NCBI GenBank assembly: GCA_015490805.1
Contig: WFXC01000002.1
Coordinates: 34,437 to 98,436, forward strand
DNA length: 64,000 bases
From: Candidatus Kapaibacterium sp.
Lineage (GTDB): Bacteria; Bacteroidota; Ignavibacteria; Kapaibacteriales; WFXC01
Direction of reading: 5' to 3'
Below, piece after piece: positions 16,229 through 42,416 of the stretch (position 1 is its first letter; every line of letters starts with the position of its first letter). The notes beneath the pieces were generated by a model, which was given only the letters and a program-made list of their open reading frames with translations, was not told the DNA's origin and searched no databases. The position numbers were made by a program, and so were the translations under genes.

Positions 16229-16684
16229 TTACTTCTTCCGCTTCTTCCGTTTCTTCTTTCCTTTTTTTTTAATCGGGCCCTCTTTCTTCGCCTTCTTTAC
16301 ATCCTCAACTGTAATAACCCCCCCAGGATTACCCCAACTGTTGTACATATATGTTGCCACAGCAGCAATGTCTTTGTCTGTATATGTCTTTGGCAACGGA
16401 TTCATCACGCCGTTGTACCGCTTGCCATTGACTGTGATGGGACCACTTAATCCAAAAATAATCGCTCGCAGGACATAAATCTTATCGTGTTTCTTCAACC
16501 AGTCACTCTTTGCCAGCGGCGGATAGATTCCAGGCTGTCCCTCACCATCGGGACCGTGGCAGGTCATACAGTAACTCCTGTACACCTTTTTTCCCTTCAT
16601 CATCACCGCCTTGCTGGGCTTTTCTGCCCAAAGGGCAGACAGACTTAACCCCACCATCAACAATAACACACCGACTTTCCGCAT
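16229..16684 (-). CDS. Secreted c-type cytochrome with polybasic C-terminal tail
   Basis: Signal peptide, CMTCHGPDGEGQPG, distal MNPLPKTYTDKDIAAVATYMYNSWG; tail KKAKKEGPIKKKGKKKRKKRKK. Confidence 0.92.
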   Translation of the reverse strand: MRKVGVLLLMVGLSLSALWAEKPSKAVMMKGKKVYRSYCMTCHGPDGEGQPGIYPPLAKSDWLKKHDKIYVLRAIIFGLSGPITVNGKRYNGVMNPLPKTYTDKDIAAVATYMYNSWGNPGGVITVEDVKKAKKEGPIKKKGKKKRKKRKK

Positions 16685-40860: not shown

Positions 40861-40996
40861 AGATTTCTGGCCACCGGACTCCCAACTTGCTCCTCCCCCG
40901 GCATTTGGGTATTCCCATCTCTCTTCTTAGCCGCTTCCCTTAGGTTCAAGCAGCATTCCCGAACCGTTTACCAGCGAATTTGCAAATTGCAAGGCC

Positions 40997-42358
40997 TTAC
41001 TTTTTCTTCTGTTTTTTCTGTTTCTTTGCCTTAGACTTCTTTGCCGAAGCCTTTTTTGCCGTAGTGCGCTTCTTTGCTGTGGAGGATTTTGTTGCCTTTG
41101 TTGTTTTCTTTGCCGTCTGCTTCTTTGTTTTCCCGGCTGTAGCAGCCTTTGTCTTCTTTGTCGCGCGCTTTTTCTCCTGTTGCGCACCCTTCTTTTTCTT
41201 CGTTACCGTTTTCTTCTTTTTCGTCTCCTGCTGTTCTGGCATTTCCGCTGGTGCTTCAGTTACTGGCTCAGCGGCTTCCTTCGCCGTGGAGACTTCCGCT
41301 GCTTTGGGCGCGCGGCGACGGCGGCGGAAGAAATCATCTTCGACCTGAAATTCCACTACCAATTTGCCGAACTGCATTCCACGCCGCATCACATCGAAAG
41401 CCTCCAGAATCTGATCAAAGGCGTAAACAGTATCAATGACGGGTTTAATCCGGTGTTTCTGGACAAATGCCACCATTTCTGCAAATTCCTCATCATTCCC
41501 CATCGTCGTTCCTTGGATACAGAGCTGCCGCCAGAAAACGCGGTGAAGATCCAGTCCGCTGGGTCTACCCAGGGTAGCACCGTACGTTACCAGAATACGA
41601 CCGGGTTTGAGGAGTTTCAGCAACGTATTCAATTGATCGCCACCGGCGGAATCAATAATGACATCGAAACCCCCTGTTTCCCGCAGCAATTGCGTATCCC
41701 ACTCAGCCTCCTGATAATTGACGCCCCCAGCTGCGCCACTTTCCAGCGCTCGCGCCAGCTTCCATTCGCTACCGGTGGTTACCCACACTTCGGCGCCGAC
41801 CGTTTTCGCAAAAAGAAATGCCATCTGCGCTACGCCACCCCCAATGCCGGTAATGAGCACTTTGTCCCCTTTCTGGACATCAGCCTGCGTAAAAACGGCT
41901 CGATAAGCGGTGAGTCCTGCCAGCGGGAGCGCTGCTGCTTCTGCATAGGAAAGGTGCTCCGGTTTGACGGCTAATCGATCAGAGGGAACGACCACATATT
42001 CGGCAAAGGTTCCTTTGCGCGGCATTCCCAGAATTTCAAAATCATTACTCTGCGCTCGAGGATCCGGTCCCCAGTTGATCGCCGGGTTGATAATCACTTC
42101 CTTCCCGATCCAGTGCCCGTCCTCCATACTGCCCGTTCGTTCCACAACCCCACAGCCATCCGATCCCAGGATGGTAGGATAACGAATCCCGGCATATTGT
42201 CCCTCGACAATCCACAAATCCCGATGGTTTAGTGCTGCAGCAAAGACCCGAACCAGCACTTCTCCCGGCTTTGGTCGCGGCTTGGTAATTTCCCGAATCA
42301 TCAAGTTACTCCAACCGCCCGGCTTTTGCAATACTAAGGCTTTGATTTTCGTTGCCAT
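40997..42358 (-). CDS. Zinc-type (MDR) dehydrogenase/quinone oxidoreductase with C-terminal histone-H1-like Lys/Ala/Thr-rich tail
   Basis: ALNHRDLWIVEGQYAGIRYPTILGSDGCGVVE, VLITGIGGGVAQMAFLFAKTVGAEVWVTTGSEWK; tail ETKKKKTVTKKKKGAQQEKKRATKKTKAATAGKTKKQTAKKTTKATKSSTAKKRTTAKKASAKKSKAKKQKKQKKK in the same frame. Confidence 0.9.
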   Translation of the reverse strand: MATKIKALVLQKPGGWSNLMIREITKPRPKPGEVLVRVFAAALNHRDLWIVEGQYAGIRYPTILGSDGCGVVERTGSMEDGHWIGKEVIINPAINWGPDPRAQSNDFEILGMPRKGTFAEYVVVPSDRLAVKPEHLSYAEAAALPLAGLTAYRAVFTQADVQKGDKVLITGIGGGVAQMAFLFAKTVGAEVWVTTGSEWKLARALESGAAGGVNYQEAEWDTQLLRETGGFDVIIDSAGGDQLNTLLKLLKPGRILVTYGATLGRPSGLDLHRVFWRQLCIQGTTMGNDEEFAEMVAFVQKHRIKPVIDTVYAFDQILEAFDVMRRGMQFGKLVVEFQVEDDFFRRRRRAPKAAEVSTAKEAAEPVTEAPAEMPEQQETKKKKTVTKKKKGAQQEKKRATKKTKAATAGKTKKQTAKKTTKATKSSTAKKRTTAKKASAKKSKAKKQKKQKKK

Positions 42359-42416
42359 AGGTGTCCCTCGTTGGTTTGTCCAACACACTGCATTAACAGT
42401 GGAACAAAGTTAAAAA

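Follow-up and report, generated by a model that had tools for sequence, protein, structure and literature searches.

It is well established that bacterial proteins can carry lysine-rich tails. In the Pseudomonas proteins AlgP and PhaF a disordered lysine-rich C-terminal tail is carried by an unrelated N-terminal domain, and the C-terminal domains of both proteins bind DNA (PMC9239181, PMC3574117). Actinobacterial topoisomerase I (TopA) also has a C-terminal tail that is lysine-rich and H1-like, and in this enzyme the lysine repeats stabilise the protein on DNA and keep it there (PMC7398561). The protein described here, a reductase of the MDR superfamily, likewise ends in an H1-like tail. In contrast to AlgP and PhaF, where the tails are of K/P/A type and the carrier is a phasin or a helical domain, the tail is of K/T/A type and sits on an enzyme. 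DNA itself is what TopA acts on, whereas the MDR reductase is without a known nucleic-acid substrate. To our knowledge the MDR reaction has no link to nucleic acid. A literature search turned up no description of an H1-like tail on an MDR dehydrogenase, although one may exist; as far as searched, carriage of such a tail by a metabolic MDR reductase is apparently unreported, in keeping with the first-pass annotation of this DNA, which had called it unusual.

The gene lies in the window, the whole 64,000-nucleotide stretch of DNA that was analysed, on contig C14 of the host genome G000 (2.67 Mb, 97%-complete). It occupies positions 42358–40997 of the minus strand and encodes 453 residues in a frame that is open from ATG 42358 to TAA 40999–40997. 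The comparison set consists of three congeneric species of a small genus of uncultured bacteria, G000 and the MAGs G001 and G002. The features of the gene are:

42359..42375, minus strand: possible ribosome-binding site GAGG upstream of ATG 42358 (suggested by the sequence)
41345..42358, minus strand: MDR reductase domain, residues 1–338, NAD(P)H quinone oxidoreductase/enoyl-reductase-like (Pfam ADH_N and ADH_zinc_N; end-to-end alignment with 2eih and 9mc1)
41300..41344, minus strand: junction with an RRRRR cluster, residues 339–353 (sequence)
41219..41299, minus strand: mildly acidic linker, residues 354–380, net charge −5 (charge count)
41000..41218, minus strand: K/T/A-rich polycationic tail, residues 381–453, net charge +34, presumed disordered (charge count; no indel in G001 and G002)
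40997..40999, minus strand: stop codon TAA (sequence)

The MDR assignment is given by Pfam matches above cut-off to PF08240 (ADH_N, 1.1e-20) and PF00107 (ADH_zinc_N, 3.1e-23), which correspond to a GroES-like N domain and a Rossmann domain. The glycine-rich cofactor motif TGIGGGVA at residues 170–177 is invariant across the three congeners. Profile and PDB-chain alignments identify residues 6–337 as a complete MDR reductase fold. Over this range the catalytic and nucleotide-binding fold is common to PIG3-like NAD(P)H quinone oxidoreductases, trans-acting enoyl reductases and the alcohol dehydrogenase 2eih, in comparison with which the present protein has about 115 extra C-terminal residues. 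The best PDB chains, 2eih and 9mc1, extend only 2 and 1 residues, respectively, beyond the position aligned with query residue 336; since the enzyme fold stops where the homologous chains stop, the tail is read as an addition to a complete enzyme. In place of the structural-zinc cysteine lobe of 2eih (CGRC-ERC), the alignment displays the cysteine-free stretch WGPDPRAQ. The profile TIGR02824 (PIG3-type quinone oxidoreductase) scores 171.4 bits, below its curated cut-off of 296.8, and every listed NCBIfam equivalog and subfamily cut-off is missed, so that the substrate class is left unassigned. The missing 2eih-type structural-zinc cysteines and the missed NCBIfam cut-offs together lead to the label of a probably zinc-free MDR reductase. 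The enzyme is probably dependent on NAD(P)H, as its place in the MDR family would suggest.

The dehydrogenase frame was first described as running without a stop into about 100 residues dominated by K, A and T, with the composition of H1-like proteins, and both points are borne out. Within the 453 open codons, residues 345–453 (41326–41000) contain 36 K, 20 A, 16 T and 7 R and carry a net charge of +35, while domain residues 1–338 have a net charge of −2. Against a background of 3.9% K in 181 long sampled frames, the binomial probability of at least 36 K in 109 residues is ~1e-23; K per 100 residues reaches 35 here and 19 in the next highest of the 181 frames. AAG is used over AAA in the tail (23/36 lysine codons versus 39% in the background, P = 0.003). 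The tail DNA has a GC content of 50%, which excludes an AT-rich slip. Tail prolines are confined to residues 351–374. KPAA-type tandem repeats in the style of AlgP and PhaF are absent from the tail, a Pfam search with residues 345–453 gives nothing up to E 5, and the PF07432 profile (Hc1/H1-like nucleoid protein) gives no match over its cut-off. Tryptic peptides of the linker include AAEVSTAK and EAAEPVTEAPAEMPEQQETK. From its composition the tail is presumed to be disordered; an AlphaFold2 model built on a 3-sequence alignment has a mean pLDDT of 34.5 and is equally low in information for domain and tail.

A frame error near the junction was an early concern with this gene. The scan of contigs for relatives, whose reach is limited to close kin, returned the two congeners only. 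In G002 the whole gene lies within one contig, is 96% identical and has a tail of the same length with neither indel nor stop. In G001 the gene is split over two contig ends at the tail start, which would favour an assembly join or sequencing frame error; against this, the two ends have 8 nt in common at that point and, once joined, yield the frame of G000 at its full length, with no indel and no stop. The same in-frame junction is located inside single contigs of G000 and G002, and codon-level purifying selection, described below, extends across the tail. The three assemblies thus display no sign of error and confirm that the dehydrogenase–tail junction is no assembly or frame artefact, an error at this point being extremely improbable. 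The tail might also be produced as a separate H1-like protein of ~130 residues from a start inside the dehydrogenase gene, as G000 has a GGAGG eight bases ahead of an in-frame GTG-ATG at residues 323–324. In both congeners, however, this Shine-Dalgarno-like element reads GGAAG and ATG373, a second in-frame start close by, is replaced by ATC, while comparable internal sites occur in 34/181 sampled frames. A separate start for the tail was rejected on the non-conserved GGAGG, and such a product is very unlikely.

The net charge of the tail is +35 in G000, +33 in G002 and +34 in G001. Pairwise comparison of the three species gives a dN/dS of 0.27, 0.17 and 0.15 for residues 339–453 (Fisher 0.012, 1.9e-6 and 1.5e-5), and by these ratios the tail is translated and under purifying selection. 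This selection is less strict than that on the fold: in the codon comparison of the three species the domain has a dN/dS of 0.04–0.05 versus 0.15–0.27 for the tail, and tail dN is 2–3 times domain dN. In the strictly K/T part, selection is clear in both comparisons with G001, the G000–G002 pair alone being compatible with neutrality.

Synonymous divergence between G000 and G002 is low over 41000–41344 of the minus strand (6/107 tail codons versus 69/309 in the domain, P = 3.6e-5). Against G001 it is near normal in the tail, the G001–G002 comparison included, which speaks against a hidden nucleotide-level constraint or second function. Because the low value is confined to G000–G002, it suggests local history, perhaps recombination. 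Copying of the tail from another K-rich gene was considered and rejected, genome-wide DNA and protein searches returning the locus itself only.

A survey of homologues, as the first-pass annotation had proposed, separates the genus from its surroundings. The MDR domain is present in 62/123 genomes of the order and in 62/396 genomes sampled across the phylum at the cut-offs of the search. The three congeners carry the tail and all inspected relatives outside the genus are without it. The extra-genus relatives whose C-terminus was read all end 7–17 residues past the GK(L/I)V motif; in the remaining relatives of order and phylum, with C-termini judged from match ends, the match extends no further than query residue 369. 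By these short ends, the tail was added to an already complete enzyme in this genus alone. The family is represented here by one genus only, so the time of tail origin cannot be narrowed further. Separate dehydrogenase and H1-like genes in relatives would have spoken against a genuine fusion; no relative was found to have an H1-like gene downstream of the dehydrogenase. In G000 a small Hc1-family (PF07432) ORF without a lysine-rich tail lies apart on contig C37 (L217:334–558, minus strand), and this separate ORF means that the MDR tail is no displaced Hc1. Hc1 matches occur in 28/41 genomes searched around the genus.

Other proteins of G000 are also lysine-rich. A protein assigned to HU by Pfam (L080; C12:30194–30577) has a KT-rich tail very similar to the MDR tail in composition and in KKT/KKA phrasing. 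A DNA similarity search with 40900–41500 gives the gene itself as sole significant genomic match, and common descent of the HU and MDR tails is therefore not shown. K-rich HU tails are also found in other families of the order. Lysine-rich stretches are located in proteins that we take, by recognition of their sequences, to be IF-2, L24 and DnaA, in the latter in the N-terminal region. The window contains a second K-rich tail, at 16232–16684 of the minus strand, on an exported-looking cytochrome c (PF00034, Pfam) that ends KKAKKEGPIKKKGKKKRKKRKK, with the K-rich end KKKGKKKRKKRKK; this gene adjoins cytochrome-oxidase-like genes.

K-rich segments on several unrelated proteins of one genome, a tail restricted to one genus and a tail dN of 2–3 times that of the domain would fit a low-complexity expansion under weak constraint and peculiar to this lineage, which would have no particular ligand and be retained mainly for solubility or stability, or simply not have been lost so far. 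The tail, however, keeps its length exactly and its charge almost exactly across the three species; in the HU tail of the genus, by contrast, a codon indel is present. The tail dN/dS is also well under 1, and the preference for AAG would avoid long A runs. We regard such an expansion as unlikely.

Nucleic acid is the most natural ligand, because K-rich stretches are located mainly on nucleic-acid proteins of the same genome, and the nucleic-acid anchoring first suggested for the tail is plausible. The exported-looking cytochrome c indicates that a K-rich tail alone need not imply nucleic-acid binding in this genome. The tail might instead bind another polyanion (acidic lipids of the inner membrane face, polyphosphate or acidic proteins), placing the reductase at the quinone pool or at a granule. 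Membrane proximity would profit a quinone-oxidoreductase-like enzyme, the AlgP tail works at polyphosphate granules (PMC9239181), and the K-rich cytochrome c of the same window is near cytochrome-oxidase-like genes. On the other side, hydrophobic residues of the sort usual in polybasic membrane anchors are missing from the basic tail, and a search for PPK1 alone did not find it in the 97%-complete genome, which makes polyphosphate less likely and weakens the earlier proposal of polyphosphate anchoring. Binding to another polyanion is a realistic but rather doubtful alternative.

The preferred reading, to which we assign a probability of about one half, is that the polycationic tail holds the reductase on nucleic acid, was gained in the genus ancestor and has been kept by selection. 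A complete MDR reductase would have acquired in this ancestor a C-terminal extension that begins with the arginine cluster, continues as a short acidic linker and ends in a disordered polycation of ~73 residues. The tail would bind electrostatically and non-specifically to DNA, or to ribosomal or other RNA, and such binding would concentrate or retain the reductase on nucleic acid. In the cell the tail-bearing enzyme is thus probably bound to DNA or RNA, with a possible effect on catalysis or nucleoid structure. A bolder version, in which a metabolic NAD(P)H-dependent reductase resides at the nucleoid or ribosome through its H1-like tail and couples local redox chemistry or cofactor state to nucleic acid organisation or translation, is improbable, and the "redox-responsive nucleoid protein" of the first-pass annotation gained no specific support. 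If a selected H1-like tail does sit on a metabolic reductase, the same cheap polycation module that is known from DNA-binding, granule and topoisomerase proteins would also serve to place metabolic enzymes in the cell, and the tail-less related enzymes offer a natural comparison with and without it.

Two further lysine-rich proteins of G000 were observed. One, presumably a DksA/TraR-like zinc-finger protein by recognition of its sequence (L086; C33:22741 region), has a K/T/S-rich N-terminal extension of ~85 residues, with a K fraction of 0.35 over 60 residues that is above all 28 inspected extra-genus relatives; the N-terminal extensions of DksA-like proteins in other families of the order are mostly less lysine-rich. 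The other, on contig C34 (L157:880–1332, plus strand), is a small, highly charged protein with the K-rich end KKAAKKSAKSASSTKKTSSSKKKKKK.
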